47,624 nt of DNA from a virus, in IMG/VR virus record IMGVR_UViG_3300018421_005425, positions 1 through 47,624 of that record, one strand, 5' to 3'. Position numbers and translations under genes: made by a program. Shown here in pieces: positions 3,419-37,588 of this stretch (position 1 is the first letter of the stretch; every line of letters starts with the position of its first letter). The notes under the pieces are model-generated. The model saw only the letters and a list, made by a program, of their open reading frames with translations. It was not told the DNA's origin and did not search any database.

Positions 3419-3423
3419 TTATT

Positions 3424-18277: not shown

Positions 18278-18280
18278 ATA
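18273..18280 (+). promoter_or_regulatory. T4-type late promoter (TATAAATA)
   Basis: A perfect TATAAATA overlaps the stop codon of the giant gene and lies 20 bases before the ATG at 18300. This leaves room for a short leader containing GGAATAAG as a Shine-Dalgarno sequence. It matches the T4 late consensus recognised by gp55-type sigma with the sliding clamp. It would start a transcript for the three tail genes at 18300-20972. Confidence 0.65.
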
Positions 18281-18299
18281 TTATAAATGGAATAAGAAA

Positions 18300-18899: not shown

Positions 18900-18910
18900 T
18901 AGGAAAAAAG

Positions 18911-19828: not shown

Positions 19829-19829
19829 T

Positions 19830-21038: not shown

Positions 21039-21386
21039 ATGGATGAGAGACTCGGGAAAGCCCTAGAATTTGGCAACTATCGAACTACATTAGCAAACCA
21101 AAAACGCAACGTTATTTCTAGAATGCAAAATCTTCAGAAGGTGCATTATAACGGTGGGTCTTTTAATGCTAGTCCACAAACAATTGCATTTGTGCAAGCA
21201 CTTATTTCAGTTAAAAAGAAATCAAGTGTAATACTTGACGTTAAAGAAAATCCAATTGAAATTGAAGACTTACAAGATTTTTTAGATACACTTATTAGTG
21301 CTTACACTGAAGGTGTGAATGAATATAAAGTTCAAATGGATAAACTTAAAAAAGCAAGAAATATTAAAAAAATTATGGACTGGTAA
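21039..21386 (+). CDS. Conserved small phage protein of unknown function
   Basis: This 115-aa, mostly helical, lysine-rich protein begins 'MDERLGKALEFGNYRTTLANQKRN' and ends in a helix with 'KKARNIKKIMDW'. I recognise the pattern as a small protein found in other marine T4-like phages but cannot assign a function. It is the first gene after the dual promoter, with an AAGGAGA Shine-Dalgarno sequence. Its stop overlaps the following glycosyltransferase start (TAATG). It could be a DNA- or protein-binding accessory factor; there is no motif evidence. Confidence 0.55.
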   Translation: MDERLGKALEFGNYRTTLANQKRNVISRMQNLQKVHYNGGSFNASPQTIAFVQALISVKKKSSVILDVKENPIEIEDLQDFLDTLISAYTEGVNEYKVQMDKLKKARNIKKIMDW

Positions 21387-22294
21387 TGAGCGAAGAAGAG
21401 CGTGGCGTATGCATGTTTGCATACAACAATGATAAAATGGACTATATTCAATTTGCCCATTTAGCGGCGGCATATGTTAAAAGAAATATGCCAAATTTGA
21501 ACACATGTCTTATTACTGATAATGGTACATACTCGTATCTTAAAGACAGTATACCTGATAAACTACATAACAAAGTCTTTGATACTGTAGTCATACAGGA
21601 TGTAACACATCCTAGTAATCCACGTAGACACTATGACAGTCCGTGGACTGAATTCAGTGCGCAATTTAGTAATAGTAACAAGCATGAAATTTTTGAACTT
21701 ACTCCTTTTGAAAGAACTATGTTAATTGATACTGACTACTTTATTATGAACAATGACTACGCATATGTGTTTGATAGTGATATTCCTATTGCAATGCACA
21801 AATATGCTAGATATTTAGAACACCAACCCCCGTACATGAATGAACAACAACTAAGTGATGCTGGCATTCACCATTGGTGGAGTACAGTTGTTTACTTTGA
21901 TCAAAGTGAAGAAAGTCGTGTGTTTTTTGATACATGGGCTCATGTAAAAGACAACTGGGACTATTATCATTTATTATATCAGTTTCCGCCTGGACTATTT
22001 CGTACTGACTTTTGTGTTAGTATTGCAGCACATATTCTAAATGGGTTTAATGAAAACACTTTTGTACATACCTTTGACGGAATGAAAATGGTTAATATGG
22101 ACCAAAAAGATGATATTGTTGAAATTAAAAGCGCAAATGATATTATTTTGTTAAGTCATAACCGTCAAGAACAATGGAAAAATATATTAACTCGTTACGA
22201 AAATACTAATATGCATCTTATGAACAAACTTGCTATTTCTAGAAATGCACAAAGTATGTTAGAAAAAGTCACTGAAGGATGGGATGTATTATGA
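21386..22294 (+). CDS. Glycosyltransferase-like protein (GT-A, GT8-type)
   Basis: The 302-aa product has the order expected of a GT-A nucleotide-sugar transferase: an N-terminal Rossmann-like segment with 'NLNTCLITDNGTYSYL', an acidic DTD metal-binding motif at D115-D117 in 'RTMLIDTDYFI', and a 'HHWWSTVVYFDQSEES' segment that fits the acceptor region. Family members transfer a sugar from a nucleotide donor with a divalent metal. The donor and acceptor are unknown. It has no signal peptide or membrane segment, so it acts in the host cytoplasm. It is coupled by TAATG to the gene before and by ATGA to a related transferase after. Confidence 0.68.
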   Translation: MSEEERGVCMFAYNNDKMDYIQFAHLAAAYVKRNMPNLNTCLITDNGTYSYLKDSIPDKLHNKVFDTVVIQDVTHPSNPRRHYDSPWTEFSAQFSNSNKHEIFELTPFERTMLIDTDYFIMNNDYAYVFDSDIPIAMHKYARYLEHQPPYMNEQQLSDAGIHHWWSTVVYFDQSEESRVFFDTWAHVKDNWDYYHLLYQFPPGLFRTDFCVSIAAHILNGFNENTFVHTFDGMKMVNMDQKDDIVEIKSANDIILLSHNRQEQWKNILTRYENTNMHLMNKLAISRNAQSMLEKVTEGWDVL

Positions 22295-23169
22295 GCAAAA
22301 AAGGATTTGTGATATTAGCAATTAATACTGAGCAAAGTATGTTGAACTATGCCTATGCTACGGCTGCAAGTATTAAGTTATCAGATCCAGAATCTAGTAT
22401 ATGTATTGTACTTGATAAAGGGGCTGAACTACCAAAAATTTATGCTAATGTGTTTGATTATGTGACTGAATTGCCCTTTGGTAACAGTGCATACAAAGAT
22501 GGTTTTCATGGCATGAACGTTTGGCAAATGATACATGCTACTCCATATGATGAAACTATATATGTAGACTTTGATACAATATTTCTCAACGTTGATGTTG
22601 AGTTGTTATGGGAAACAATGTCCAAAAATGACATTTCTATTCCTTCGGCTGCCAGAACGTATAGAAACCAACCTTTAAGGTTGGGTAGTAGTCTTTTTGA
22701 ATATGAATCACATTATGAACTTCCCAAGTTATACAATAGTATGATATATTTTAAACGAGATAGCCAGTCTGCAATTGAATGGTTTAAAATGGCTGATGCA
22801 GTGTTGCAAAACTGGAGAGAAATTTATAGTAGTTTAATGCCAGATAAAAAGCCTCCACGTTTTAGTAAAAATATTTTGTGTAATATTGTAACACATTTGT
22901 TAGATGTCGAATCAAACTTGAAAGTTGTTAATAACGACTTTTATGATTTGCATACTACAAGCCAATGGCTATGGAATAATGATGTTCCAGATGAATGGAC
23001 TGAAGTGTTAAACTATTGGTTTCCAGAAAACAAAAAACTCATCATTGAAAACAGTATAATTTCATCAGGAATTGTGCACTATCGAGATTTAAATTTTATA
23101 ACAGAAGAAATATTGAATGAATACCGAACCCAGATTGATATCAGTAGTAGGAGAAAAGCCGCTTCCTAA
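22291..23169 (+). CDS. Glycosyltransferase-like protein (GT-A, GT8-type), paralogue-like
   Basis: The start at 22291 (ATGA overlap with the upstream stop) is preferred over an in-frame ATG 12 bases earlier. The sequence begins 'KKGFVILAINTEQSMLNYAYATAASIKLSDPES', typical of the GT8-type donor-binding region. It has a DFD motif at D93-D95 ('IYVDFDTIFLN') for metal binding, followed by 'YNSMIYFKRDSQSAIEWF', matching the order of the previous gene's 'STVVYFDQSEESRVFF'. The two genes look like a diverged tandem pair. No membrane segment is seen. The 3' end overlaps the next frame by 53 bases. The sugar and acceptor are unknown. Confidence 0.65.
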   Translation: MSKKGFVILAINTEQSMLNYAYATAASIKLSDPESSICIVLDKGAELPKIYANVFDYVTELPFGNSAYKDGFHGMNVWQMIHATPYDETIYVDFDTIFLNVDVELLWETMSKNDISIPSAARTYRNQPLRLGSSLFEYESHYELPKLYNSMIYFKRDSQSAIEWFKMADAVLQNWREIYSSLMPDKKPPRFSKNILCNIVTHLLDVESNLKVVNNDFYDLHTTSQWLWNNDVPDEWTEVLNYWFPENKKLIIENSIISSGIVHYRDLNFITEEILNEYRTQIDISSRRKAAS

Positions 23170-24121
23170 GTACTATGTTTATTATGATGAATGGACTGGT
23201 GAAATCATCAATATAACAAACAAGTACAAAGCGTCTAAGAATCCACATCTGGTAACAGAAGACAACACTGCAGCAGAACTTATTTTGGGACACCTAAATC
23301 CCAAAAAATTTATTGTGATGGAAACACCAGATGGGATTTTCTTAATGCCTAAACAGCATCAATTGCGACTTAAAGAAGAAGAAAATCATCTTAGTAAAGT
23401 TGCTGAAATTCCGTTGACCACTGACAGAGAAATTAACATTATCAAATACACTAATAGTTGGATGTTGGAAGTTAATATCAGTACTGATGCTGTGTATAAG
23501 ATGACTGGTAGACGCAACAACAAAAAGTTTTCTAAAAAAGAGAATGTAAACAACAGTACTATATACTTTTACATTATTGAAAAAAATAATCCACTGAATC
23601 TAATCAAAACTATCAAGATTGATCCTATTGATTTGATTAACAAAGGATTTGAACTCTTTAACTTGGAGGATCTACAGAACGTTATCGGACTCAATAATAT
23701 TGATATCCTAACTCGTAGAATTTTTAAAAGTTATGGCTTGAAATCTAAAGAAAACTATGTTAGTGTAGAGTATCTCAAAAGGAAAAACTCTAGGCGTAAT
23801 CATTATAATATTACGGATGTAAATAAAGAAGCAGCATTTTATATTAGTAAAAGTACAGAAGGTTGGATTTTTAGAAGCAATTTTAATAGTCCTGATGAAT
23901 TTAAAATCTTTAGCAATCTAAAAATTTACATCACTGGAGATACTCCATTTGACCTTAAAGATACAATAGTGTTGCCATTAACAGAACTAGGCAACCATGG
24001 AGAGTTATATGTTAAAACTGACGCCGATCTTTTAACATCTAAGTTATTAATCGGTGAAGAAGGCAAGCATTTGTCATTTAATTATGAGGAACTAGAATAT
24101 GTCAAACCTGGTAAGTATTAA
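23117..24121 (+). CDS. Unknown protein in the glycosyltransferase cluster
   Basis: The 334-aa product begins 'MNTEPRLISVVGEKPLPKYYVYYDEWTGEIINIT' and is lysine- and asparagine-rich with mixed alpha and beta character. No catalytic motif, membrane segment or repeat is recognisable. The ATG at 23117 gives an unusually long 53-base overlap with the gene before, but no later in-frame start keeps the 'YYVYYDEWTGEI' segment, so it is retained. The end overlaps the next glycosyltransferase by 23 bases. It could be a structural protein or a partner of the transferases; neither is supported beyond context. Confidence 0.5.
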   Translation: MNTEPRLISVVGEKPLPKYYVYYDEWTGEIINITNKYKASKNPHLVTEDNTAAELILGHLNPKKFIVMETPDGIFLMPKQHQLRLKEEENHLSKVAEIPLTTDREINIIKYTNSWMLEVNISTDAVYKMTGRRNNKKFSKKENVNNSTIYFYIIEKNNPLNLIKTIKIDPIDLINKGFELFNLEDLQNVIGLNNIDILTRRIFKSYGLKSKENYVSVEYLKRKNSRRNHYNITDVNKEAAFYISKSTEGWIFRSNFNSPDEFKIFSNLKIYITGDTPFDLKDTIVLPLTELGNHGELYVKTDADLLTSKLLIGEEGKHLSFNYEELEYVKPGKY

Positions 24122-25082
24122 TGAATTTGACATAGTTTATATCAGCTACGACGAACCCAATGCTGATGAAAACTATGCAGACTTATTAGATAAATGTCCA
24201 TGGGCCAAGAGGAGCCATGGAGTATGGGGAAGTGATGCTGCACACAAGGCCGCCGCAGCACTAAGTGAAACTGAACGTTTTATTACAATTGATGCTGATA
24301 ACATCGTTAATGAAGATTTTTTTAATGTTGAATTAGACATGGATAGAATTGGAGATAACCATGTTATTAGTTTTGCAGCAAAAAACAAAATTAATGGTTT
24401 AGTGTATGGCAATGGCGGCATTAAAATGTGGCCGGTTGATGTTGTAAACCGTATGCGTACACACGAAGCTGCACCAGTAACTGATAAACGTGCACAGGTT
24501 GATTTTTGTTGGAATATCCACTATGTGCAAATGAACAATTGGTATTCATGGGTACACAACAACGGAAGTCCATTACAAGCATGGCGTGCTGGTTTCCGTG
24601 AAGGTGTTAAAATGGGCTTAGAAAATGGTGATGTGGTTGCGCCAGATAAACTAAAGCGTATCCACAGAGAAAACTATCGTAGACTCTTAGTTTGGATGAC
24701 AATTGGCGAAGATGCAACCAATGGGCTGTGGGCAATGTATGGTGCAAGATTAGGTGCATATATGACCAATGTCAAGCGGCATGATTGGGATTGGAGAAAT
24801 GTGCGAGATTTTGACTGGCTAACCAAGTTTTTTAATGAAGAACTTGCGCCACAATTTGCTGATGGAACAGAGTTGTGTCCAAGAACTGGATACAGTTGGG
24901 ATCCAACAAAACTAAAAGCAGAAACTGTGAGATTGGGAACTGAACTACGTAGCGAACTAGATTTAGAAATCGCAGATATTGGTCTTGAGGGTTCACGTTT
25001 TTGGAAAACTGTATATCGCAATCCAAGTAGACTTGGTCCACAAGTACGTGAAGACCAAGTAGACAATAACATAGAGGATTAA
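24099..25082 (+). CDS. Glycosyltransferase-like protein (GT-A fold, DAD motif)
   Basis: The 327-aa product contains 'FDIVYISYDEPNADENYADLL' near the N-terminus and a metal-binding DAD at D65-D67 in 'FITIDADNIV'. These are followed by 'GLVYGNGGIKMWPVDVV' and a conserved-looking aromatic region ('DFCWNIHYVQMNNWYS'). I recognise this pattern from glycosyltransferase-like proteins of marine phages. It is not closely similar to the two transferases upstream, so it probably uses a different donor or acceptor. GAGGA lies just before the next gene, which starts one base after this stop. Confidence 0.65.
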   Translation: MSNLVSINEFDIVYISYDEPNADENYADLLDKCPWAKRSHGVWGSDAAHKAAAALSETERFITIDADNIVNEDFFNVELDMDRIGDNHVISFAAKNKINGLVYGNGGIKMWPVDVVNRMRTHEAAPVTDKRAQVDFCWNIHYVQMNNWYSWVHNNGSPLQAWRAGFREGVKMGLENGDVVAPDKLKRIHRENYRRLLVWMTIGEDATNGLWAMYGARLGAYMTNVKRHDWDWRNVRDFDWLTKFFNEELAPQFADGTELCPRTGYSWDPTKLKAETVRLGTELRSELDLEIADIGLEGSRFWKTVYRNPSRLGPQVREDQVDNNIED

Positions 25083-25083: not shown

Positions 25084-26556
25084 ATGTCTAACGAAGAAAA
25101 ACCAAAGTTTCCAGATGATTTGTCTATCGATCCGCAAGAAGCCGCTGAACAAATACGTCCAGTTTTAGACAAAATCAGTCCTAGTATGTGTATGGCTAAG
25201 TGGCTTTGGTCAAGTATTCATTTGACAAATGGGTTGACTAACAGTTGTTTTCTTCCTCCTGTGCATAAGATTGAAGCAGGTGCTGTTAAAGAAAATCCAA
25301 AAGCACTTCACAATACTCCAGAGAAAAAAGAACAACGTGCTATGATGCTCAAAGGCGAACAACCTGATGGATGTAGCTACTGTTGGAATATTGAAAACAT
25401 GGATAGGTCTTTTCTTAGTGATAGACATTATCGTAGTAGCGAACCATGGGCAGCCGCAGGTTGGGAAGATGTACTAGAAGCTGGTGCTGATGGTGATGTT
25501 GAACCACGTTACTTGGAAATTAATTTTAACCATGCTTGTAATTTAGCATGTAGTTATTGTAGTCCACATTTGAGTTCAAAGTGGGCAGAAGATATTGAAC
25601 AAGATGGTCCTTATAATACTATTGTTCCTCATAATAGTATTGACTATTTTAAGCAAATCGGACACTATCCTATTCCAAATAGACAAGTAAATCCGTATGT
25701 AGACGCATTTTGGGAATGGTGGCCAGAGCTATATCCAAAACTCAAGAGCTTTAGAATGACAGGCGGTGAGCCGCTAATGGACAAAAACACATTTCGTGTA
25801 TTAGACCATATTGTTGACAATCCAAGAGAGGATTTGGAAGTTGCTGTGACTACAAATGCAAGTGTTCCAGAAAAACTTTGGAACAACTTTGTTGATAAGG
25901 TTAGTTTTATTAGCGAATACAAAAAAGTCAAACGCTTTAGAATGTTTGTAAGTGTGGATGGCTGGGGAGAACAAGCAGAGTACATGCGTGATGGATTAGA
26001 CTTTGATCGTATGTGGAACAATGTTCATAACTACTTAACTCGTGTCGATGAAGGTTTAGTTACATTTATTGTTACGTTTAATATGTTAAGTTTGCCAAGT
26101 ATTAAACAGTTATTGGAAGGCATCCATGAACTTCAAAAAGTGCACAATGTATCTAAGACTCGACGAGAAGAGAATGGTGTGTTAAAAGTATATGGACACC
26201 ATAAAGTGTTTATTGATACTCCAATGTTGCGCTATCCACATTGGCAAAGTTTGCAGTTGGTGCCCGAAGAGTTTTGGCATTATGGTGATGAAGCACTTGA
26301 GTATATGAAAGCACACACAGACAAAGGTCGTGATTCACGATGGACTGGGTTTAAGCCCCATCAAATTGAACGATTTGATCGTAGTTTGGAATTTATGAAA
26401 GCAGGTTTTGATAATGACGAGCAATTACATGAAGCACAAGAAAATTGTGTAAGATTTTTTGATGATTATGATAGACGGCGTGGAAGAGATTTCCAAAAAT
26501 CATTTCCTGAATTCGGGCCACTAATTAATAAATGGAGAGTAGACCACAATGTATAG
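25084..26556 (+). CDS. Radical SAM protein 1, N-terminal Twitch-like module
   Basis: The 490-aa protein carries the radical SAM CxxxCxxC signature at C152, C156 and C159 ('ACNLACSYC'), which would hold the [4Fe-4S] cluster that cleaves S-adenosylmethionine, and the GGEP motif at 227-230. An N-terminal cysteine module (C36, C55, C97, C100) probably holds a second cluster, as in Twitch-type proteins. It has a single Cys (SC) where most neighbours have CC. Its core closely resembles the next gene ('NPYVDAFWEWWPELYPKLKS' against 'NPYVEAFWKWWPDLRKSLKV'), so the two are tandem paralogues. The substrate is unknown; related enzymes act on peptides, proteins or small molecules. It is first in an array of eight radical SAM genes. 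Confidence 0.82.
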   Translation: MSNEEKPKFPDDLSIDPQEAAEQIRPVLDKISPSMCMAKWLWSSIHLTNGLTNSCFLPPVHKIEAGAVKENPKALHNTPEKKEQRAMMLKGEQPDGCSYCWNIENMDRSFLSDRHYRSSEPWAAAGWEDVLEAGADGDVEPRYLEINFNHACNLACSYCSPHLSSKWAEDIEQDGPYNTIVPHNSIDYFKQIGHYPIPNRQVNPYVDAFWEWWPELYPKLKSFRMTGGEPLMDKNTFRVLDHIVDNPREDLEVAVTTNASVPEKLWNNFVDKVSFISEYKKVKRFRMFVSVDGWGEQAEYMRDGLDFDRMWNNVHNYLTRVDEGLVTFIVTFNMLSLPSIKQLLEGIHELQKVHNVSKTRREENGVLKVYGHHKVFIDTPMLRYPHWQSLQLVPEEFWHYGDEALEYMKAHTDKGRDSRWTGFKPHQIERFDRSLEFMKAGFDNDEQLHEAQENCVRFFDDYDRRRGRDFQKSFPEFGPLINKWRVDHNV

Positions 26557-28222
26557 AGATGTAGACTACCAAGCAGAACGTGAATATATGAAAGAAGTAT
26601 ATGGTAATGATACAATGTGCACTGCTAAGTTTTTTACTAGTACATTGTATCTGCAAAGTGGGCAAACACATAGTTGCTATCATCCATTACCCCACCAGGT
26701 TGGATTAGATGAAATTGTGGATAATCCTAGTGCAATTCATAACAGTGCACATAAGAAAAAACAACGCAAGAAGATGCTCTGTGGTGAACGTCCTGGCGAA
26801 TGTAATTACTGTTGGCGAGTTGAAGACATTGGTGAAGATGTTTTAAGTGATAGAATTATCAAAAGTAAAAATGAACGACTGTTAACACCAGATGCACATG
26901 ATATTATTTTAGACAAAGGCGAAGACTATAACTATGATCCAACATACTTGGAAATTAGTTTTGGCAACGAGTGCAACATGAAATGTGCATACTGTCATCC
27001 CAAAGCAAGTAGTGCTTGGATGAAGGAAATGGAGTTACATGGACAATTTGAAAGTGCGCCGCATTTACAAATTCTTGAAGAAAAGATTTATCCAGAAGAA
27101 GAAAACCCATATGTTGAAGCATTTTGGAAATGGTGGCCAGATTTACGCAAGAGCTTAAAAGTGTTGCGCTTAACTGGTGGCGAGCCGTTACTTCAGCAAA
27201 ACACTTGGAAGTTTTTGGATATGTTGGAAAAGACTGACGACTGTTCAGACATGATCTTTCAACTTAACACTAACTTGAATATTAAAAACGTTCTTGTTAA
27301 AAGGTTAGTTAAAAAAATAGATGCACTAATCAAAAATAAAAAGATTAAAAAGTTTGCATTGTTTACAAGTGTTGAAAGTTGGGGAGAACGTGCACAATAT
27401 GCACGTAGTGGCCTTGACTGTGATTTATTTGAGAAAAACATAGAAACAATTATGACAGGATTAAATCATTTTGAAAGTGATGAGTTTTCTGGCATACAAA
27501 TTATGAACACATTTAACATTATGTGTGTTACTAGCTATATTGCATTCCTTAAAAAGATGCTTGAATGGAGACAAAAGTTTACACTTGGAAAAGGCAAACC
27601 TCACTTGTCATTTGATATTCCACATTGTACAGAGCCTAATCACTGGACGTTAGTGGGACTTCCTGATGAATATGGTGTATACTTTGAAGAAACTAAAACA
27701 TTTATGTATCAGAACAGTTGGAGAAATAACTGGAACAAGTACCCTAATGATACCCATCCTTTCTATTATGGTAAATACTTTTCGGATGAAGAACGTGCTG
27801 CGTGGGATCGTGTAATTAAAGTTTGGGAAAACATTGTTGAAGGTCGTGCAAAAATTGACTGTGAAGAATATCTAAAACCTAGAAATGTAGACGATGCTCG
27901 ACGAAATTGGTTTTTGTTTATCAATGAAACTGATAAAAGACGTGGCACTAACTTTTTAGACATTTTTCCAGAAATGGAATCATATTATACAATTTGTAAA
28001 GGACTAGAAGATATTGAAAACATGGCATACAACCAGTCATGTAAAGATGAAATGTTGAACTTAAAACAGCCTATACAGATTCACTGGGACGATGATTTTG
28101 TTCGAGATTATCCAGCTCTTGCTAATACAATAGTTGAATATAGAAAACAAAAGAAAGCGCCTACAGAGCTTTACTATGAGGATAAGCTAACAGACAGATT
28201 TGGATTTAAGAAGAAAAAATAA
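26549..28222 (+). CDS. Radical SAM protein 2, N-terminal Twitch-like module
   Basis: The 557-aa protein is the longest Twitch-type member of the array. The radical SAM cysteines are C142, C146 and C149 ('ECNMKCAYC'), and GGEP follows at about 210-213. The N-terminal module uses C24, C43, C85 and C88 and, as in the preceding paralogue, lacks the CC pair. A C-terminal extension of about 100 residues, rich in charged and aromatic residues, is not present in the paralogue and may bind a partner or substrate. The start overlaps the previous stop by 8 bases and the end overlaps the next start (TAATG). The reaction is unknown. Confidence 0.8.
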   Translation: MYRDVDYQAEREYMKEVYGNDTMCTAKFFTSTLYLQSGQTHSCYHPLPHQVGLDEIVDNPSAIHNSAHKKKQRKKMLCGERPGECNYCWRVEDIGEDVLSDRIIKSKNERLLTPDAHDIILDKGEDYNYDPTYLEISFGNECNMKCAYCHPKASSAWMKEMELHGQFESAPHLQILEEKIYPEEENPYVEAFWKWWPDLRKSLKVLRLTGGEPLLQQNTWKFLDMLEKTDDCSDMIFQLNTNLNIKNVLVKRLVKKIDALIKNKKIKKFALFTSVESWGERAQYARSGLDCDLFEKNIETIMTGLNHFESDEFSGIQIMNTFNIMCVTSYIAFLKKMLEWRQKFTLGKGKPHLSFDIPHCTEPNHWTLVGLPDEYGVYFEETKTFMYQNSWRNNWNKYPNDTHPFYYGKYFSDEERAAWDRVIKVWENIVEGRAKIDCEEYLKPRNVDDARRNWFLFINETDKRRGTNFLDIFPEMESYYTICKGLEDIENMAYNQSCKDEMLNLKQPIQIHWDDDFVRDYPALANTIVEYRKQKKAPTELYYEDKLTDRFGFKKKK

Positions 28223-29526
28223 TGAGTAAAAGCCTTTGTATATACCCATTTGTAAATTTGAATAGTAATACAGAAGGAAGCATCAAACTTTGTTGTGCAA
28301 TTCCTGAAAACATTCATATTACAAAAAATGGAAAAGAAATAAATTTTGAGAATACTTCAATTGCAGACATCTGGTACAGTGAATATATGACTGACATTAG
28401 GAAAAAAATGCTTGCTGGGGAAAGACCAGAAGCATGTAATACATGTTGGAAATTGGAAGATATGGGTATACACAGTAGTAGACAAAGTGGTTGGGATGAG
28501 TTTAAAATTATCGATGACGAGTTTGTCAAAAATATAGATTTTAGTGAAAATCCAGAATTGCCAGCAAGTTTAGAATTGCGTTTGGGTAATTTTTGTAACT
28601 TGAGATGTAATAGCTGTTGGGCATTAAGTAGTGACCGGATTGCTGACGAGCGTGAGCGCATGATTAAAAACGACCCAGACATACCAGAATGGCTGGTAGA
28701 TAGTTGGAGATATGAACTTGACATGTCTAAAGAAAGCAATTGGCTTTGGTGGGAAAGTGAAGAATTTGAGCGCACTATTGAAGAGCTTGCTCCTAAACTA
28801 AAGCGTTTGTATTTGACTGGAGGCGAGCCAACACTCATACAAAAGAATATTGAAATTATGCAGAAGATTTTAGACAGTGGTAATGACAGGTGTTACATTG
28901 CACTTACTACTAACTTGACTAAATTCAACGAAGTATTTTACAATACAATGTCAAGATTTATCCATGGTGAAGTTCAGATAAGTATTGATGATATACGAGA
29001 TAGAAATCATTATATTAGATACCCAACACAGTGGGATCACATTGAGGAAAATCTTCCCAAGCTATACTATACATTGCCAACTAATTGGAAGATCAAGCAC
29101 TATACTGTTTATCAAACTTTTAATTATGATACCATTCCTGAGTTGATTGATTGGATTGATTTACATAGATCTTATCATGAGAAGGAAAAATATCGTCACT
29201 ATATTTGGAGCCCAATCTTGTTAGACAATACTTCATATTTGGATGCCCGTATTATACAAAAACCATATCGTGAAGAAGCATTAGTTAAACTTAGAGAAAA
29301 GTTATATAATGGTGTTGAAACACACGGCACATGGTGGAAGCACGGTGTTGCACAAGTAATCAAGTTTTTAGAAAACGATCATTACACTGAAGAAGAATGT
29401 GTTAAGTTACGGAAAAAGTTTAGGGAATTTTGTGATACTATGGATCGTAATCGAAAAAGTTCTTGTTGGTATGAAACATTTAATGAGCAGCTGGCACAAA
29501 AGGTGTTTTCAGAAAGTAATCCATGA
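28222..29526 (+). CDS. Radical SAM protein 3, N-terminal Twitch-like module
   Basis: The 434-aa protein has a complete N-terminal Twitch-like pattern: C6, the C24-C25 pair and C72-x2-C75 in 'GERPEACNTCWKLED'. The radical SAM triplet is C125, C129 and C132 ('FCNLRCNSC'), and 'YLTGGEPTLI' supplies the GGE motif. It differs clearly from the neighbouring pairs and is closest in style to radical SAM protein 8 at 35171. A predicted cytoplasmic enzyme with two Fe-S clusters, it would need an electron donor, presumably a host flavodoxin or ferredoxin. TAATG and ATGA junctions tie it to the genes before and after. Confidence 0.8.
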   Translation: MSKSLCIYPFVNLNSNTEGSIKLCCAIPENIHITKNGKEINFENTSIADIWYSEYMTDIRKKMLAGERPEACNTCWKLEDMGIHSSRQSGWDEFKIIDDEFVKNIDFSENPELPASLELRLGNFCNLRCNSCWALSSDRIADERERMIKNDPDIPEWLVDSWRYELDMSKESNWLWWESEEFERTIEELAPKLKRLYLTGGEPTLIQKNIEIMQKILDSGNDRCYIALTTNLTKFNEVFYNTMSRFIHGEVQISIDDIRDRNHYIRYPTQWDHIEENLPKLYYTLPTNWKIKHYTVYQTFNYDTIPELIDWIDLHRSYHEKEKYRHYIWSPILLDNTSYLDARIIQKPYREEALVKLREKLYNGVETHGTWWKHGVAQVIKFLENDHYTEEECVKLRKKFREFCDTMDRNRKSSCWYETFNEQLAQKVFSESNP

Positions 29527-30800
29527 AAATAGATTTAGAAAAAAGTAAAGCCAGTAAACATTTTTGCATGGCGCCTTGGGTAACATTACATGCATGGCCT
29601 AGTGGAGACACTTGGCCATGTTGTGTTATTATTCCTGAAGGAAAGTTTAAGTCTGGAAAAGGTATGACTAACCTGAATGATAGTGGAATCGAAGATGCTT
29701 GGAACTCTCCATTAATGAAAGAGTTACGCTGCAATATGATTGCAGACAAACCAAGCAAGGCATGTAGTAGATGTATTGATGAAGAAAAAGCTGGAAACCC
29801 TTGGACACTACGCAAACACCTAAACAATCAGTTTTTCGATCTGCATTTTGACAAAGTGCATGAAACAAACGAAGACGGTTCACACGACAATCCAGAAATA
29901 TTGTATTGGGATATTAGATTTAATAACCTTTGTAATATGAAATGTCGTACATGTAGTGTAGAGTTTAGCAGCCAATGGTATGAAGACAGTGTTAGTTCAT
30001 TTGGTTATGAAGGTCCAGCATACAAAGGATTACCAAAAGACTTTTGGGACAAATCTTTGAAATATTTAGATAAAGTTGAATATGCTTACTTTGCAGGAGG
30101 TGAGCCACTCATTACTGAAGAACATTACAAGATGTTGGATCATTGGCTAAGTGTTGGCAACACTAAAATAAAAATTGACTATACAACAAATTTTAGTAAA
30201 ATGAACTTACGTAACAAGCACGTGTTTGATTACTGGAATAAGTTTGAGAATGTCAATGTTGGTGCTAGTTTAGATGATAATTGGGAACGTGCTGAATATC
30301 TACGCAAAGGTACCAAATGGATTGATATTGTTAATAATAGAAAACAGATGATTAAAGAGTGTCCTGATACTAGATTTTTCTTGTCTAGTACTGTAAGCAT
30401 TTATAATGCACTACACTTTCCAGATTTCCATAAAGAATGGTTAGAAGAAGGGTTAGTTGACCCACACAACATCAACATTAATTTTTTAACAGAGCCAAAT
30501 TGGCTTAGTACACAAAATATGCCAAAAGCATATAAAGAAAAAGTTGAGAGACGTTGGCGTGATCATATTGATTACTTAAACAAAAATTATTATACTGATC
30601 GTGACATATCTATATATGAAGATCCAGAAGTACTTAACATCTGGGAAAGTGTTCTTAATTACATGAACGGTTACGACCAGCCAGATGAAGAAATGATAAC
30701 TACATTTGTACATAACACACAATGGCTAGATCGATTTCGAGAAGAGTATTGGCTTGATGCCTTTCCAGAGTTAGAAATATTGAAAAAATATGAGTATTGA
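29523..30800 (+). CDS. Radical SAM protein 4, N-terminal Twitch-like module
   Basis: The 425-aa protein shows the clearest Twitch-type N-terminus in the array: 'CMAPWVTLHAWPSGDTWPCC' (C15, C33, C34), then 'DAWNSPLMKELR' and C81-x2-C84. The radical SAM triplet is C137, C141 and C144 ('LCNMKCRTC') and 'YFAGGEPLIT' follows. It shares the 'FDKVHETN.DGSHD' linker and the 'NLCNMKCRTCS' core with the next gene, so the two are recent tandem duplicates. The substrate is unknown. Confidence 0.82.
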   Translation: MKIDLEKSKASKHFCMAPWVTLHAWPSGDTWPCCVIIPEGKFKSGKGMTNLNDSGIEDAWNSPLMKELRCNMIADKPSKACSRCIDEEKAGNPWTLRKHLNNQFFDLHFDKVHETNEDGSHDNPEILYWDIRFNNLCNMKCRTCSVEFSSQWYEDSVSSFGYEGPAYKGLPKDFWDKSLKYLDKVEYAYFAGGEPLITEEHYKMLDHWLSVGNTKIKIDYTTNFSKMNLRNKHVFDYWNKFENVNVGASLDDNWERAEYLRKGTKWIDIVNNRKQMIKECPDTRFFLSSTVSIYNALHFPDFHKEWLEEGLVDPHNININFLTEPNWLSTQNMPKAYKEKVERRWRDHIDYLNKNYYTDRDISIYEDPEVLNIWESVLNYMNGYDQPDEEMITTFVHNTQWLDRFREEYWLDAFPELEILKKYEY

Positions 30801-32058
30801 TAAAAAATATATGCTCGACGAGAGCAAAAACTTCTGTATGGCTCCGTGGATACATATGCACGTTTGGCCAAATGGAAGAACGTTTCCGTGTTGTTTAAGC
30901 GATCCGTCACTAGACCACTATGGCAATACAAACAAAAATACCATACATGAATTATGGAATAGTGATCTTGCATGTACACTAAGAAAAAACATGTTAGATG
31001 ATAAGCCAACAGAAACTTGTAAACGGTGTTATGAACTTGAAGCAGATGCTGATGCATATACATTACGTCGAAATTTAAACTCAAAGTTTAAACATCATTT
31101 TGACAAAGTGCACGAAACAAATCCTGATGGATCACATGATACTCCAAACCTTGCATACATGGATTTTCGATTTAGCAATTTATGTAACATGAAATGTCGT
31201 ACCTGTAGTCCTACTTTTAGTACAATGTGGTATGATGATTACATAAAGAAATTTGGTGAAGTGCATGAAGATATTGCTCCAAAAAAGTTTTTGCAACTCA
31301 AAGAAAAGCCTGGCTTCCTAGAAGAACTTTGGCCGTTATTGGACACAGTTGAGGAAGTATATTGGGCTGGCGGCGAACCATTAATTACTGATGTGCACTG
31401 GGACATTATGAACCACTGGGTTGAAACTGGACAAAGTGAAAACATTACAATTAACTATACTACTAATTTTAGTCAACTGATTTATAAGCGTCAAAATGTT
31501 ATTGACTTATGGAAAAAGTTTAAAAATGTAAATGTAGCAGCTAGTTTGGATGCTATGGGAGATCGTGCAGAATTTATTCGTGATGGCACAGTGTGGAACG
31601 ACATTGTTAATAACAGAAAGCAACTATTAGAACAAGCACCAGAAGTTGAGTTTACAATTACTCCCACACTTAGTTTGATGAACATTTGGCATATGCCAGA
31701 TTTTCATCTAGAATGGATGAGATTAGGATATGTTAAGCCTAATGGATTTAGACTAAACAACTTACTTGATCCCAAGTATTTCTGTATGCAAGTTCTTCCA
31801 AGCAGCTACAAAGAAGAAATAACGTACAAGTGGGAAAATTATATTGATCTGGTTACCAACCATCAAGATTTTGCTGCCTGCAGCGACCAATATTGGGAAA
31901 CAAGTGCACGTGGAACAATTGAATTTTTGAACAAACAAGACTTATCTTATTTGATTCCAGAAACTATTAAAGAATGGGAAACCTGGGACGAAGTTAGAAA
32001 TCAAAAATGGCACGAAGCATTACCTGAGCTAAAATTTTTAGAAACATTTAAGGAATAG
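30790..32058 (+). CDS. Radical SAM protein 5, N-terminal Twitch-like module, duplicate of protein 4
   Basis: The 422-aa protein has C16, C34, C35, C77 and C80 in the N-terminal module and the radical SAM triplet C132, C136 and C139. 'YWAGGEPLIT' and 'NYTTNFSQL' match the same positions in the upstream paralogue, and the similarity extends over the full length, including the C-terminal 'MPDFHLEWM...GLNN'-like stretch. Retention of both copies with all cysteines intact suggests two distinct substrates or a heterodimer. The start overlaps the previous stop by 11 bases. An AAGGA near the 3' end serves the next gene. Confidence 0.82.
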   Translation: MSIDKKYMLDESKNFCMAPWIHMHVWPNGRTFPCCLSDPSLDHYGNTNKNTIHELWNSDLACTLRKNMLDDKPTETCKRCYELEADADAYTLRRNLNSKFKHHFDKVHETNPDGSHDTPNLAYMDFRFSNLCNMKCRTCSPTFSTMWYDDYIKKFGEVHEDIAPKKFLQLKEKPGFLEELWPLLDTVEEVYWAGGEPLITDVHWDIMNHWVETGQSENITINYTTNFSQLIYKRQNVIDLWKKFKNVNVAASLDAMGDRAEFIRDGTVWNDIVNNRKQLLEQAPEVEFTITPTLSLMNIWHMPDFHLEWMRLGYVKPNGFRLNNLLDPKYFCMQVLPSSYKEEITYKWENYIDLVTNHQDFAACSDQYWETSARGTIEFLNKQDLSYLIPETIKEWETWDEVRNQKWHEALPELKFLETFKE

Positions 32059-32059
32059 T

Positions 32060-34189
32060 ATGTCAGACAATGGTACATATTTAGAAGACCGCAGTACACT
32101 TACACTACGAGCTATTGAAAAGTTTGCAGGAAAACCACAGCGTGGTTTAGATCAACTAGACATTTCGTATGACGTTAATCGTCAAACTCGCATGTGTATG
32201 GTTATGTGTCCAGAATGGGATCCAAGTTTCCCTCCGTATAACATTGCACGACTTGCTGGTGTTGTTAAAAGTGCAGGATATGCGTGTAAAAGTTTTGATT
32301 TAAATATTGAATCTTATCTTGCATACAAAAACGAAGAATGGCCATTGTGGTTTAATCCATGGTCAGGTCCATATGACTGGAAATGGATCGGAGAACAATA
32401 TTGGGATGAATTACACCAGTACGTTCAACCAGTTCTGGATCGTTGCATTGATAATATTATTGAATTCCAACCTAACGTAGTTGGATTTACACTTTACTAC
32501 TGTAATATTGAACCAGTACATTACATGATCGATCAAATCAAAAAACGTAACAGTGATATTAAGATATTGATCGGAGGCCCTAACACACACTACAGTTATT
32601 TTGAGGCAGAATCGTCTTATGATTATGTTATTAATGGCGAGGGTGAAAAGCCATTACTACAACTATTGGAAAGTTTAGAAAATCAGCAAGAAGTAGAGTA
32701 TACTGAAAAGAGAGAAAATACACTAATTGTTAGACAACCAGAAGAAAGTAGGTTAGATTTAAGCAATCTTCCATTTCCTGACTATACAGACTTTCCAATG
32801 AGTGAATACCGCTTTGCTAATGGCGCACTTTGTGCTATTAGCCGTGGATGCACTGCAAAGTGTACGTTTTGTGAAGAAACTCACTACTACAAGTATAGAC
32901 AACGTACAGCCGTCAGTACATTAGAAGAAGTTAAGTTTATGTATGACAATTATGGAACACGTGTGTTCCAGTTTACTGATAGTCTAGTAAATGGCAATTT
33001 ACGTGAATTACGTGCGTTTGCTGAGGGTGTAAAAGCAGCAGGACTTGATATTAAATGGACAGGGTATGCACGATGTGACGGACGTATGGATTTAGAATAT
33101 TACCAAGCACTTGCTGATAGTGGCTGCTATGCACTTAATTATGGAATTGAGAGCGGCAGTCAAAGCGTACTAGATGCAATGGATAAACGGGTTACTATTA
33201 AAGAAATGGAAGACAATTTCCGTGATGGTGCAGCAACTGGCGTTATGGCACACACTAACTGGATTACTGCGTTTCCAAATGAACGCCCAGTTGACTTTGA
33301 GGATAGCTTGACTTTTCTTTGGAGACAGCGTGACAAAGGATTATTGTCAATTGGACAGGGTCCTGGATTTGGTGTTGGAGTAGACGGAATTGTTGGACAA
33401 AACCTACAGCGTTTTGGGTTGTCTCAATATTACTATTACGACCACTGGATCAGAGAAGATTTTGGATTGAGTATCGTACACAAAATGGTAAAGCAAAAAA
33501 TGTTTAGTATTTTTACAGATTTGCTAGTCACAGATGACAATTGCGCAAAGCCAACCAGACACAATTTAGCAGAGCGTCACTATACTATTGAATTTAATGA
33601 TCCTGATCGTCTTAATCATATTGAATATGACTATCATGATTTTGATTACAATATTATTAAAACTGATAAAGGAAACTTTGTCAATACACTTGTTAATGAA
33701 GTTTGGCCGTTCCTCAGAGTTATATGGAGAGCTCGTGGAGGATATCGTATAAAACTGTTGTTTGTTCCGGAATGGGAATATGCTGAATGGGGAGAGCGAG
33801 CAGCCGCTCCGTTGGATGCAGAATACATTTTTGAAATCGACGATGAAGGAAATTGGACGGCGGACTTTAAATGGAAGTACCAACAAGGGCATTTAGATTA
33901 TGAATGGAATGATCATAAGTGGACTGATCACAATGGTGTTGAACACGTATCTCCTGACACTTGGGGACCTACATGGGGGTTAGTTAACTTTTATAGTAAC
34001 AACAGTAACAGTGCAGTAAGAGCCCGCAAACTTGCTTGGAAGGGAGATGAAAGATTTAAAGGTCGTGATCCCTGGGACGCATTTAGTGTTGAAGATTTTG
34101 ACCAGCAAAAACATGACTTTATAAAAATAAGAAATACTGATCTAAGTTTTGAACATGCATGGCAAGGAAGTGGAAAATGGGATGTCTGA
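32060..34189 (+). CDS. B12-binding-domain radical SAM protein (BchE/class-B-like)
   Basis: The 709-aa protein has a cobalamin-binding-like Rossmann domain at about 45-205 ('PPYNIARLAGVVKSAGY', 'NVVGFTLYYCNIEP', 'ILIGGPNTHYS', 'VINGEGEKPLLQLL'). A radical SAM core follows with C264, C268 and C271 ('GCTAKCTFC'), 'VFQFTDSLVNGN', 'ARCDGRMD' and 'LNYGIESGSQSVLDAMDKR'. About 200 further residues, rich in W, D and E, have no recognisable domain. The classical DxHxxG B12 motif is absent, as in many enzymes that bind cobalamin base-off, His-off. Such enzymes typically methylate unreactive carbons or phosphorus, or rearrange rings. The host would have to supply cobalamin. AAGGA precedes the start. Confidence 0.82.
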   Translation: MSDNGTYLEDRSTLTLRAIEKFAGKPQRGLDQLDISYDVNRQTRMCMVMCPEWDPSFPPYNIARLAGVVKSAGYACKSFDLNIESYLAYKNEEWPLWFNPWSGPYDWKWIGEQYWDELHQYVQPVLDRCIDNIIEFQPNVVGFTLYYCNIEPVHYMIDQIKKRNSDIKILIGGPNTHYSYFEAESSYDYVINGEGEKPLLQLLESLENQQEVEYTEKRENTLIVRQPEESRLDLSNLPFPDYTDFPMSEYRFANGALCAISRGCTAKCTFCEETHYYKYRQRTAVSTLEEVKFMYDNYGTRVFQFTDSLVNGNLRELRAFAEGVKAAGLDIKWTGYARCDGRMDLEYYQALADSGCYALNYGIESGSQSVLDAMDKRVTIKEMEDNFRDGAATGVMAHTNWITAFPNERPVDFEDSLTFLWRQRDKGLLSIGQGPGFGVGVDGIVGQNLQRFGLSQYYYYDHWIREDFGLSIVHKMVKQKMFSIFTDLLVTDDNCAKPTRHNLAERHYTIEFNDPDRLNHIEYDYHDFDYNIIKTDKGNFVNTLVNEVWPFLRVIWRARGGYRIKLLFVPEWEYAEWGERAAAPLDAEYIFEIDDEGNWTADFKWKYQQGHLDYEWNDHKWTDHNGVEHVSPDTWGPTWGLVNFYSNNSNSAVRARKLAWKGDERFKGRDPWDAFSVEDFDQQKHDFIKIRNTDLSFEHAWQGSGKWDV

Positions 34190-35171
34190 ATTAGTAAAAA
34201 TTGTACAAGGCGGTGATCCATTTGTAAACATTACTTGGCAAGTAAGTAATCTATGCAATTTTCGTTGTAGTTATTGCAATGAATGGAATTGGAATGGTAG
34301 TAACAAAAATTTAGATGTAGGCAAAGTCAAAGCTGGGCTAGATAAAATTATTGAGTATGAACTTGAGCGTGGTTATACAAGGCTCAAAGTATTCTTTAGT
34401 GGCGGCGAACCTGGTTATTGGAAGCCACTAATACCTATTATTGAACACATTAACAAATCTGGTATGAGTGAAGTCAAGTTTGCAGTTAACACTAACTTGA
34501 GTAATAAACTCAGCTGGTGGGAAGAACATGTAGAATTGTTTGATGACGTTGTTGCAAGTTATCATCCAGAATATGTAGATACAGATCATTATTTAAAAAT
34601 TTATAAGTTTTTAAGTGAAAAAGTGAACTATCTGTGTGGTCGAATGATGATGCACGAGCCATGTTGGGACGAAGTTATTGACTTTAGTAAACGTTTAAAA
34701 AGTGAATGTGATGCTGAAGATTTAAACTGGCGTATTGAATATGTTCCTATATTTGAAGAGCTAAGTCATACTACTCGACCATATGAATATAAAAATCCAC
34801 TACACAAAAAGTTTTTGGAAGAAACAAATTTAGAAGAAAATATCAAACGTTATATACCAGCCAAAGCAAACGGCATGGGTAGTTTAGAAGTATACAAAGA
34901 TGGTAGTCAAACACCTATTAATTGTAATAGAATAGTAGCAGAAGGTAAAAACTTTTTTAAAGGATGGAAATGTATGATTCCAATGGAAAGTATCTTTATT
35001 AACTGCGAAGGACATATTGATATGGGAAGTTGTGGCGTAATGCCACGTGTTGGAAACTTGTACGATCCTGAGTTGACATTGAACTTACCAGACAGTATAA
35101 TATGTCCGAAGAGTCATTGTCACTGTGGTACTGATATCTATATAACAAAGTTTAAAAAAGGCTATGAATAA
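34182..35171 (+). CDS. Radical SAM protein with C-terminal SPASM-like cysteine cluster
   Basis: The frame opens at 34149, but the ATG at 34182 gives an 8-base overlap like its neighbours and is preferred (329 aa). The radical SAM triplet is C25, C29 and C32 ('NLCNFRCSYC') at the very N-terminus, and 'VFFSGGEPGYW' supplies GGE. The C-terminal third is cysteine-rich ('INCNR', 'GWKCMIP', 'IFINCEGH', 'GSCG', 'ICPKSHCHCG'), matching a SPASM or half-SPASM auxiliary cluster. It is thus built in the opposite order to the Twitch-type members. Such proteins often modify peptides or proteins. The stop overlaps the next start (TAATG). Confidence 0.8.
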   Translation: MSELVKIVQGGDPFVNITWQVSNLCNFRCSYCNEWNWNGSNKNLDVGKVKAGLDKIIEYELERGYTRLKVFFSGGEPGYWKPLIPIIEHINKSGMSEVKFAVNTNLSNKLSWWEEHVELFDDVVASYHPEYVDTDHYLKIYKFLSEKVNYLCGRMMMHEPCWDEVIDFSKRLKSECDAEDLNWRIEYVPIFEELSHTTRPYEYKNPLHKKFLEETNLEENIKRYIPAKANGMGSLEVYKDGSQTPINCNRIVAEGKNFFKGWKCMIPMESIFINCEGHIDMGSCGVMPRVGNLYDPELTLNLPDSIICPKSHCHCGTDIYITKFKKGYE

Positions 35172-36400
35172 TGCATAAAGACACATATTGTGTACTACCG
35201 TACAATCACCTAAGTATTGACCCAAGTGGAAAAGTGCGACCATGTTGCAACTATAACTTTCATCACAAAGAATATCCAAAAGATCAATGGGGCGACTTTT
35301 TAAATGTACAAGACGGGTATACCATTGAAGAATTAGTGAATAGCAAAGCACATGTTGAATTAAGAAAAGACATTAGTGAAAACAAAAAGCATTCGTTTTG
35401 TGATAGATGTTGGGTAGTTGAAAACGGCGGTGGACACAGTTATAGACAAGATTGGAATAACACCTTTATAGAACAGCAAAATAGAAGCTTTCTAGATCGT
35501 ATTAATATTGAATATCTAGAAATGACGCTGGGTAATAAATGTAATATTCAGTGCCGTATGTGTAATCCCTGGAGCAGTAGTATGTGGCTGGAGGATATTA
35601 AAAAGAACCCAGAGCTTGATTATTGGAATACATTTGTAGAGTCAGTTAATTTTGAATGGTACGATACTCCTGAGTTTGATAAATTATTGGAACAAGTAAT
35701 CCCAACTGTAAAGCACATCAATATGTTGGGTGGCGAACCACTGTTTAATCAAAAATATTATGACATTTTACAACGCATTGTCGATAGTGGTCGAGCACAT
35801 GAAGTAAGTTTACAGTTTAATACCAACCTACTAGCACTACAAGACAAAAACTTAGATTTGTGGAAGCATTTTAAATGGTTAAACGCAAACATAAGTTGTG
35901 ACGGCGTAGAAGCAGTTAATGAGTATGTTAGATATCCAGGAAAATGGAGCAAGTTTGTTCGTAATCTAGACAAAATTATTGAATGGCAAAAAGAAATTGG
36001 TGGCGATGAAAAGATGATATTACAAATTCACAGCACCATGAGCAGTTTAACATGGCTTGATTTTGGAAACCTATTAGAATGGTGCAAGGGATTGCCGTTA
36101 AAACACAAACTCCCATTTGTTATTCAAGTAACACAGCCACCATATATGAATGCTGTTCATATGCCAGAAAAAATTAAACAACTTGGATATGAGAGAATCA
36201 AAGCAGCTATTCATAATATAGATGATTGGCAAGTTACTAATATTAATAGTTTGGTTGATCATGTTATGAACACACCTGCTGATCCAGAAATGTGGAAAAC
36301 AATGATTCGTGAAACAAACAAGTTGGATCGTATTCGTAATGACAGTATATTAAAGTATATACCAGAATACCAGGAGTACTGGAATGACAGTACTCGATAA
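35171..36400 (+). CDS. Radical SAM protein 8, N-terminal Twitch-like module
   Basis: The 409-aa protein begins 'CVLPYNHLSIDPSGKVRPCC' (C7, C25, C26), then C77-x2-C80, giving a complete Twitch-type module. The radical SAM triplet is C124, C128 and C131 ('KCNIQCRMC') and 'NMLGGEPLFN' follows. 'YLEMTLGNKCNIQC' resembles radical SAM protein 3. It ends the array and overlaps the next gene by 17 bases. The reaction is unknown. Confidence 0.8.
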   Translation: MHKDTYCVLPYNHLSIDPSGKVRPCCNYNFHHKEYPKDQWGDFLNVQDGYTIEELVNSKAHVELRKDISENKKHSFCDRCWVVENGGGHSYRQDWNNTFIEQQNRSFLDRINIEYLEMTLGNKCNIQCRMCNPWSSSMWLEDIKKNPELDYWNTFVESVNFEWYDTPEFDKLLEQVIPTVKHINMLGGEPLFNQKYYDILQRIVDSGRAHEVSLQFNTNLLALQDKNLDLWKHFKWLNANISCDGVEAVNEYVRYPGKWSKFVRNLDKIIEWQKEIGGDEKMILQIHSTMSSLTWLDFGNLLEWCKGLPLKHKLPFVIQVTQPPYMNAVHMPEKIKQLGYERIKAAIHNIDDWQVTNINSLVDHVMNTPADPEMWKTMIRETNKLDRIRNDSILKYIPEYQEYWNDSTR

Positions 36401-37588
36401 CAAAGTACATCCTGCATCACATCCTGATTTTGAAAAATTTGATGAAAACTATCATAGCTTGGGATTCTTGGAAGTTTCCCAAAAATCTAACTATGAAAAC
36501 TACCTAATCATCAATACTCCTTTTCACTTGCCTAATAATATAAATGATGTGTTTAGTCAAATTGCGTATTTTAAAAACGGTGACTATCTGAAAAATATCA
36601 ATCCCTACTTTGATGATATTAGAAATGGACGCACCAAACTTGTATTCTTTTTTGTTGATTGGTGGGGTTTCTGCAATAATAACGAAATTAGTGGAAAAAT
36701 CAACGGTAATTTAATATCATATGACATATACAACTGGACTTATGCCCATATGAAGAAGTTTGGTTTAATTGAACACAGTTGCTTTTCTAGTCCAGTTAGT
36801 ATAGCAAACACTACACAGCATCCAGATTGGCCTATAATTAACTATAACGAAGCATTTAATCGTTATTTAGACCACGGTGAATTATTAGACAATTTTCAAT
36901 CATCTGGTTTTGACAGTTTTATGTTTTATCTCAATAGACGCCCACGATCTCATCGACTCTACACACTACACCAAATATATGAAACTGGCTTACTCAACAA
37001 CGCACAGTATACATTCCATTTCTTTGATGAGGGTGTTCAATCAAACTTGTATACTCGAGAAGATTATGTGAAGAATTTTTTAACTGGTTGGATAGAACCA
37101 GAAAATATTAATTATGGAATACTTTCAGCAGTTAGAGAAAACTTTCCAAACGATGATTTATATGATGCAACCGTTGATGTGCAAACACTGGGAGAGTTAG
37201 AACGACTTCACCAAGTTAGTAATAGTTGTTTTCTTGAATTGATTATTGAATACAACTGTAGCGACACAAAGTATTTTTAACTGAAAAGATTGCTAGAAGT
37301 ATCGTACTTAAAAAGCCATTTATTGTTGTGGGAGACCGTGGTACTCTAGAAGAAATAAAAAGCTATGGGTTTAAAACTTTTGACAGTATTTGGGATGAAA
37401 GTTATGACCAGCTACCAACAGCAAAAGAGCGAATAAATGCAGTTGTTGAATTACTTACACAACTACAAAATGATCCTTGGCATGAGTATAGTCAAAAACT
37501 TCAAGAAATAATTGATTACAACGCTCAGTGGTACTATACTGGATATTGTAAACAACAGCAAGTATTATTTGAGAGGATTTTTAATTGA
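36384..37588 (+). pseudogene. Glycosyltransferase-like gene split by a frameshift in a T5 run
   Basis: Two frames cover this gene. The first (36384-37280) ends at a TAA just after TTTTT at 37274-37278. The second continues one frame back as 'FLTEKIARSIVLKKPFIVVG', then 'LKSYGFKTF'-like and 'DESYD' segments, to the stop at 37586-37588. Adding one T to the run restores a single protein of 401 aa with the junction KYF-LTEK. The full sequence resembles a family with 'LNRRPRSHRL' in the middle and an 'LTEK..R.I..KKPFIVVG' C-terminus, reminiscent of the donor-binding half of GT-B or fucosyltransferase-like enzymes; its function is unproven. The fault may be a real mutation, a homopolymer assembly error or, less likely, programmed -1 slippage. 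GGAG precedes the ATG. Confidence 0.72.

Follow-up and report, generated by a model that had tools for sequence, protein, structure and literature searches.

The virus record IMGVR_UViG_3300018421_005425 is a 47.6-kb linear virus fragment, and its whole stretch of 47,624 nucleotides forms the window analysed here. Eight intact radical S-adenosylmethionine (radical SAM, rSAM) genes, R1 to R8, occupy positions 25084-36400. They lie end to end on one strand and have no internal stops. An initial annotation had claimed eight consecutive radical SAM genes in a phage genome, and all eight open reading frames (ORFs) are indeed present and intact. Six of the proteins pass the curated cut-off (170 bits) of the NCBIfam model NF033640 (twitch domain-containing radical SAM protein, N_Twi_rSAM). 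The array consists of the following genes.

25084..26556, + strand: R1, N-terminal-twitch radical SAM protein, 490 amino acids (aa); NF033640 338 bits; own ortholog clade; nonsynonymous divergence (dN) 0.08-0.17, synonymous divergence (dS) >1
26549..28222, + strand: R2, N-terminal-twitch radical SAM protein, 557 aa; NF033640 256 bits; ortholog clade
28222..29526, + strand: R3, N-terminal-twitch radical SAM protein, 434 aa; NF033640 282 bits; PF13186 at residues 6-76; ortholog clade
29523..30800, + strand: R4, N-terminal-twitch radical SAM protein, 425 aa, paralog of R5; NF033640 353 bits; ortholog clade
30790..32058, + strand: R5, N-terminal-twitch radical SAM protein, 422 aa; NF033640 370 bits; AlphaFold2 model
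32060..34189, + strand: R6, B12-binding radical SAM protein, 709 aa; PF02310 and PF04055
34182..35171, + strand: R7, radical SAM protein with Cys-rich C-terminus, 329 aa from ATG 34182; PF04055 36 bits
35171..36400, + strand: R8, N-terminal-twitch radical SAM protein, 409 aa; NF033640 316 bits; ortholog clade

Architecture of the radical SAM proteins

R1-R5 and R8 match NF033640 over nearly the entire model length, with 256-370 bits and E values of 1e-76 to 1e-110, which is far beyond chance. The count of six N-terminal twitch-like modules in the initial annotation was therefore exact. In each of the six, a four-Cys twitch precedes the CxxxCxxC core, and this N-terminal Cys pattern is retained in 218 of 248 related rSAM proteins. 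The NCBIfam library assigns no reaction to the family. All eight proteins contain one CxxxCxxC motif, followed by GGEP in R1-R5, R7 and R8. The core of R6 is of the B12 type and lacks GGE. The profile search that had been proposed (hidden Markov models for PF04055, Twitch/SPASM and NF-type families) finds PF04055 above cut-off in five proteins (R1, R3, R6, R7 and R8) and NF033640 in six. R2 falls slightly under the PF04055 cut-off, and R4 and R5 are silent for PF04055 yet match PF13186 at the N-terminus.

SPASM and twitch domains are known as C-terminal extensions (PMC9012708). R3, R4, R5 and R8 depart from this canonical layout, in which the auxiliary-cluster domain follows the core, since their PF13186 match lies at the N-terminus, within residues 6-84. 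The N-terminal module can be aligned to the twitch at the C-terminus of BtrN (PDB 4m7t), a twitch radical SAM enzyme that dehydrogenates 2-deoxy-scyllo-inosamine, and the four Cys of both fall in register (E 4.5e-8). The domain order of the window enzymes is thus reversed relative to BtrN, and the catalytic cores of the two are only distantly alike.

An AlphaFold2 model of R5 (pLDDT 93.4, pTM 0.89) shows a core that is radical-SAM-like. This core alone matches the solved structures of CteB, SkfB, viperin, SuiB, BlsE and anSME (TM 0.32-0.38 by query length), and none of the solved structures found spans the whole of R5. Predicted structures of viral proteins, including KVP40 Q6WHP4, match it across most of its length. 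A check for cores devoid of SAM-binding structure, raised at the outset, accordingly came out negative.

R6 has the two domains of a cobalamin-dependent radical SAM enzyme, PF02310 (45.7 bits) and PF04055 (48.3 bits), each above its cut-off, which bears out the B12-binding domain noted earlier. Its profile matches the cobalamin-dependent enzyme CysS. Its scores are under the curated cut-offs of the methyltransferase models (ApyD 125 of 750, PhpK 102 of 600 and rSAM_ocin 106 of 282 bits), and ApyD is its best NCBIfam. R7 more plausibly starts at ATG 34182 than at TTG 34149. It has seven Cys beyond residue 240, where PF13186 is silent and no SPASM model matches; of the C-terminal SPASM-like cluster proposed for one gene, the Cys cluster remains.

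The junctions from R1 to R8 measure -8, -1, -4, -11, +1, -8 and -1 nt in order. These overlapping and abutting junctions are compatible with the translational coupling claimed for all genes, by geometry only. Scans for promoters and terminators gave no clear difference from shuffled sequence.

Related contigs contain further arrangements of these domains. At L036:14586-17042 and L031:9977-12475, single ORFs of 818 and 832 aa seem to join two N_Twi radical SAM units head to tail. At L113:9431-11368 an R1-type twitch rSAM is extended at its N-terminus by 200 aa, which by eye look like a P-loop sulfotransferase but have no Pfam match.

The phage and the genes around the array

Upstream of R1 lie a structural module and a cassette of glycosyltransferase-like genes.

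1043..20972, + strand: baseplate/tail structural module with gp5-like hub, gp25, gp6-like wedge, a 3650-aa protein, f14, f18 and f5; phrog_13211, PF04965, phrog_10646
18255..18899, + strand: f14, structural-module protein kept in RaK2-type jumbo phages; phrog_11259; 60 phage records, mostly RaK2-type jumbo phages
19830..20972, + strand: f5, tail-associated protein; GYGYGY runs, in the window's clade only
21039..21386, + strand: f6, small conserved protein ahead of the glycosyltransferase-like genes
21386..22294, + strand: f3 copy a, glycosyltransferase-like, DTD motif; weak glycogenin (GT8) profile matches, E about 0.1; conserved position
22279..23169, + strand: f3 copy b, glycosyltransferase-like, DFD motif; same basis as copy a
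23117..24121, + strand: f9, conserved cassette protein; no Pfam family
24099..25082, + strand: f2, predicted GT-A-fold glycosyltransferase immediately 5' of R1; structure model and Foldseek

The wedge and f14 are nearest to those of jumbo phages such as Atu_ph07, SCTP-2, Phosso and Munch. Between the window and the RaK2/Atu_ph07 type, the baseplate wedge and the structural proteins are homologous and keep one order, and in Atu_ph07 the wedge and a giant structural protein are likewise followed, some kb downstream, by a single radical SAM gene. This gene, gp171 (L229:41855-42913), is a lone radical SAM gene by annotation in this isolated jumbo phage, about 5 kb past the giant structural gene, and the twitch profile is silent on it. 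Judged from the structural genes of the 47.6-kb fragment alone, the source is probably a jumbo phage. A pelagimyophage origin, suggested by published work, was dropped on the evidence of the wedge. A mis-assembled bacterial contig, the other possibility that had been raised for the array, was also dropped; independent contigs share the same junction between phage genes and array, and the GC content is about 0.32-0.42 over the genes examined.

When the gene families that surround the arrays at 40 loci are clustered, the order f14-f18-f5-f6-f3-f3-(f9)-f2 recurs ahead of the array. An independent search with f2 returned at least 597 loci, and the figures here refer to the best 80. A twitch rSAM lies within 3.5 kb downstream of f2 in 39 of the 68 loci with enough downstream sequence and is the next gene in 29 of the 68, and f3 lies shortly upstream of f2 in 70 of 74. 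Loci that have no rSAM nearby retain f3 and f2, often with extra copies of f2. Most of L246-L265, for example, keep the f14-f5-f6-f3 cassette and carry three consecutive f2 genes, with no twitch rSAM nearby. The transferase-like core is therefore constant and the rSAM genes exchangeable, as would suit tailoring enzymes. The structure model of f2 (pLDDT 77) has only glycosyltransferases as its top Foldseek matches (TarP, TarS, SunS, RmlT and BcsA, probability up to 0.99), and f2 is thus predicted to be a GT-A-fold glycosyltransferase. Profile searches of the PDB with f1 and f2 gave nothing useful, and f2 has no match among 50,697 isolated phage records.

Downstream of R8 the window continues with sugar genes.

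36384..37588, + strand: f1, putative GT-B-like family gene, frameshift-split; intact homologs about 400 aa
37585..38622, + strand: nucleotide-sugar dehydrogenase; PF00984/PF03721
38610..39785, + strand: sugar C-methyltransferase; PF08421/PF13489/PF08484
39775..40527, + strand: Stf0-type sulfotransferase; PF09037
41832..42725, + strand: GDP-fucose-synthase-like epimerase; PF01370; NF047922 206 bits, below its cut-off
43665..44732, + strand: DegT/StrS-type sugar aminotransferase; PF01041
45944..46855, - strand: NAD-dependent sugar epimerase/dehydratase; PF01370

The GT-B-like label of f1 comes from sequence alone. The gene is read in two ORFs with a frameshift near 37266, either a sequencing error or a broken gene, and homologs such as L009:14294-15508 are single ORFs. 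One 792-aa ORF at L028:7624-10002 joins an f1-family protein to a twitch rSAM. Related loci additionally carry genes for a carbamoyltransferase, a cytidylyltransferase/cupin protein, a SIS protein and a pentose-phosphate epimerase. No membrane protein is predicted in the 21-47.5 kb region, where no protein has a hydrophobic segment over the threshold. The membrane-bound initiating transferase, flippase and polymerase of Wzx/Wzy-type O-antigen or capsule pathways are likewise absent from this region, although the larger genome may hold them elsewhere.

MTAN is the type of enzyme expected to clear 5'-deoxyadenosine. The window has no MTAN-like nucleosidase. Among 50 records, PF01048 nucleosidase genes occur only in the two richest in twitch matches (18 and 19); MTAN-type models match these genes below cut-off, and both genes, at L219:6381-6929 and L225:8072-8614, lie near radical SAM clusters. 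The chance that exactly this richest pair carries PF01048 is 1 in 1225 if contigs are equal, but contigs differ in length and completeness and the comparison was chosen post hoc. The association is only a lead.

Distribution and evolution of the arrays

Viral relatives are numerous for the twitch proteins: the R5 query returned 69 viral loci and the R1 query 54, and the B12-rSAM query 3-4. In whole-record counts of NF033640 (E<=0.001, with R7-type matches below the family cut-off included), single records reach 19 matches (G022, 156 kb), 18 (G009, 58 kb), 17 (G014, 37 kb), 16 (G008) and 11 (G003, closely related to the window). The view that single rSAM genes occur in phages and that eight are exceptional is thus contradicted, since arrays are common in aquatic phages. 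In G009 and G003 a second rSAM cluster starts about 17-23 kb past the first. The window stops 11 kb past R8, so more rSAM genes may lie beyond its end.

Isolated phages also carry relatives. Matches occur in 40 Vibrio records, at five to six places in Vibrio phages K566/K567, and about three times in each phage of the KVP40 group. As in the window, several N_Twi-like rSAM genes of K566/K567 and KVP40 (Schizotequatrovirus) adjoin genes of GT8 or other glycosyltransferases: in the isolate K566, twitch rSAMs lie among two GT8 genes (PF01501 above cut-off), and in KVP40 one twitch rSAM lies near a gene annotated PF00534. Their proteins, however, are about 21-28% identical to those of the window, their genes are fewer, and no B12-rSAM match was found in them by tblastn.

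Arrays of this kind have precedents in the literature. A T4-like marine phage genome of 183 kb with 12 radical SAM genes, TARA_ERS488813_N000010, was reported in 2017 (PMC5332604), so a marine phage with many rSAM genes was already known. The available part of that paper treats Fe-S metabolism and does not deal with array order, a glycosyltransferase link or family assignment. Radical SAM genes are enriched in Tasman Sea viromes (PMC7150976). Radical SAM cassettes also sit in the host-recognition clusters of pelagimyophages, a hypervariable tail-fibre region with glycosyltransferases and a UDP-glucose dehydrogenase (PMC7029224). The window resembles this region but differs in its RaK2/Atu_ph07-type baseplate, and the available part of the paper proposes no function for the radical SAM proteins. 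The present analysis adds an assignment of the proteins to a family, the reversal of the twitch order, a transferase-like core that stays constant while the rSAMs are exchanged, the f1-rSAM fusion, the counts of up to 19 and the culturable relatives.

In a tree of 151 rows, R1, R2, R3, R4, R5 and R8 fall into separate supported clades, each together with its counterparts at the corresponding position in up to eight other contigs; R3 and R8 additionally cluster with counterparts from a more distant set. Six distinct ortholog lines of NF033640 are thus held together in the window as one operon-like array. R4 and R5 are sister clades. Orthologs of R4 occur in L015, L017, L018, L021, L022 and L096 and are absent from L009/L010, in which R7 is 90% identical. 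Since R4 has its own ortholog clade, a recent R4/R5 duplication in the window was rejected, and the lack of R4 in L009/L010 is secondary. Pairs that are 55-91% identical have dN of 0.06-0.39, dS above 1 or saturated, and no stops. All eight genes evolve under purifying selection, which is strong in each of the six twitch lines. The separate clades and the low dN relative to dS indicate old, distinct enzyme lines as opposed to a fresh amplification, in agreement with the earlier suggestion of several different radical reactions.

A mixed alignment of all six twitch paralogs gave no usable search pattern, and a first scan of bacterial genome contigs confirmed no relatives; a broader alignment then yielded 78 bacterial loci, with members in Bdellovibrionota, Bacteroidota, Elusimicrobia and other groups. 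Five of the 'bacterial' loci (L164, L169, L176, L183 and L207) were set aside as phage-like. These array contigs come from bins assigned to Pelagibacter, Verrucomicrobia, Betaproteobacteria, Rhodobacteraceae and Rickettsiales and are probably mis-binned phage DNA. A contig of the Bacteriovoracaceae UBA6144 bin (L188/L227) has eight clustered N_Twi rSAM genes next to an Obg-like gene. In the tree these genes are interleaved with those of phages, which makes an exchange between bacteria and phages likely, whatever its direction.

A possible role in glycan tailoring

The reading we favour, at a probability of about 0.5, is that the array is a phage-encoded glycan-tailoring module whose enzymes modify a glycan that the phage itself makes and that probably sits on virion proteins. 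It draws on gene content, orthology, purifying selection, domain architecture, glycosyltransferase-like synteny, one f1-rSAM fusion and the lack of membrane glycan machinery in the window. The likeness of the twitch to that of BtrN, an aminocyclitol dehydrogenase, also supports it. The glycan or fibre modification suggested by the initial annotation is thereby strengthened by the sugar context, by glycosyltransferase-like genes conserved as a core, by the fusion and by the GT8 neighbours; the function itself we infer.

The two f3 proteins and f2, which are soluble, glycosyltransferase-like and encoded directly behind the tail genes, would build a short glycan, most likely on a tail or whisker protein of the virion, and the variable downstream stretch, with the putative transferase f1, would diversify it. 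Each of the six N-terminal-twitch enzymes may carry out one radical step on sugar residues (dehydrogenation, epimerisation, dehydration or similar). The [4Fe-4S] cluster of CxxxCxxC would reductively cleave SAM, and a hydrogen would be abstracted from the sugar residue. The four-Cys N-terminal auxiliary cluster could act as an electron relay or acceptor, as in BtrN, for which an electron acceptor role of this cluster has been proposed (PMC9012708). R6 may methylate an unactivated carbon. The nucleotide-sugar dehydrogenase, C-methyltransferase, aminotransferase, epimerases and sulfotransferase would supply or finish the sugars.

Several observations weigh against glycan tailoring. We know of no N_Twi protein with a known substrate. 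The fold of R5 is about equally near to the peptide-modifying enzymes CteB, SkfB, SuiB and anSME and to BlsE/viperin. The structural match of f2 has a low TM of about 0.3, f1 and f3 have no Pfam family, and the MTAN association depends on two contigs. The eight-gene twitch cluster of L188/L227 has no recognisable glycosyltransferase alongside, and bacterial neighbours of twitch rSAMs are mixed (GDSL 5, GT2 3 and carbamoyltransferase 2, among 117). Glycosyltransferases are in any case frequent in this phage region (PMC7029224).

Host lipopolysaccharide or capsule, instead of the virion, could be remodelled during infection, for example to exclude competing phages. Host-surface remodelling is the published interpretation of the glycosyltransferases in the equivalent pelagimyophage region (PMC7029224), and the nucleotide-sugar genes of the window are of the O-antigen type. 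We nevertheless regard this as rather unlikely. The window has no membrane protein, initiating transferase, flippase or polymerase (related contigs were not fully screened for membrane glycan genes), and the genes come after the tail module and share its strand, an arrangement suggestive of late expression. With no membrane proteins in the region and a place behind the tail genes, a soluble virion protein is favoured as acceptor over O-antigen assembly.

Modification of a protein or peptide backbone, such as a tail protein, by cross-links, epimers or C-methylation, as in ribosomally synthesized and post-translationally modified peptides (RiPPs), would make the sugar genes unrelated neighbours. 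The peptide-modifying enzymes matched by the R5 core fit this idea, as do the RiPP enzyme ApyD as closest NCBIfam of R6 and the GYGYGY runs in f5 of the window's close relatives. However, no array protein reaches a RiPP-specific NCBIfam cut-off (no systematic search for precursor peptides was made), and the f1-rSAM fusion and GT8 neighbours indicate sugars. The GYGYGY repeats were dropped as a candidate rSAM substrate, being absent from f5 of other array-bearing contigs (L096, L036 and L114). We consider backbone modification quite unlikely. Other phage rSAMs, such as QueE, act in nucleotide- or cofactor-type pathways. Small-molecule or nucleotide metabolism (cofactor, tRNA or DNA hypermodification), with cassettes merely accumulating in a tail region that is a known hypervariable island in related marine phages (PMC7029224), is improbable for the array, given its strongly conserved place directly downstream of f2 and the failure of its proteins to reach any QueE, MoaA or NrdG cut-off.

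Glycan tailoring of the virion leads to a more tentative, doubtful generalization: aquatic jumbo phages may possess a modular line of radical glycan editing, in which a fixed glycosyltransferase core is combined with an exchangeable set of N_Twi rSAMs, each with its own glycan substrate, and the radical is made directly on assembled or protein-bound sugars. If true, this would be a class of glycan-modifying enzymes as yet not known in viruses and the first function for N_Twi_rSAM, a family with no assigned reaction of which aquatic phages nonetheless keep sets of 6-19 next to glycosyltransferase-like genes. Relatives occur in isolated Vibrio phages, one of them, the KVP40-type phage QD01, grown on Vibrio natriegens Vmax, so the question is testable in culture. 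If these enzymes do edit glycans, phages would represent a large reserve of radical sugar chemistry that is still untapped, and in the ocean the resulting decoration could control shielding or the recognition between phage and host.

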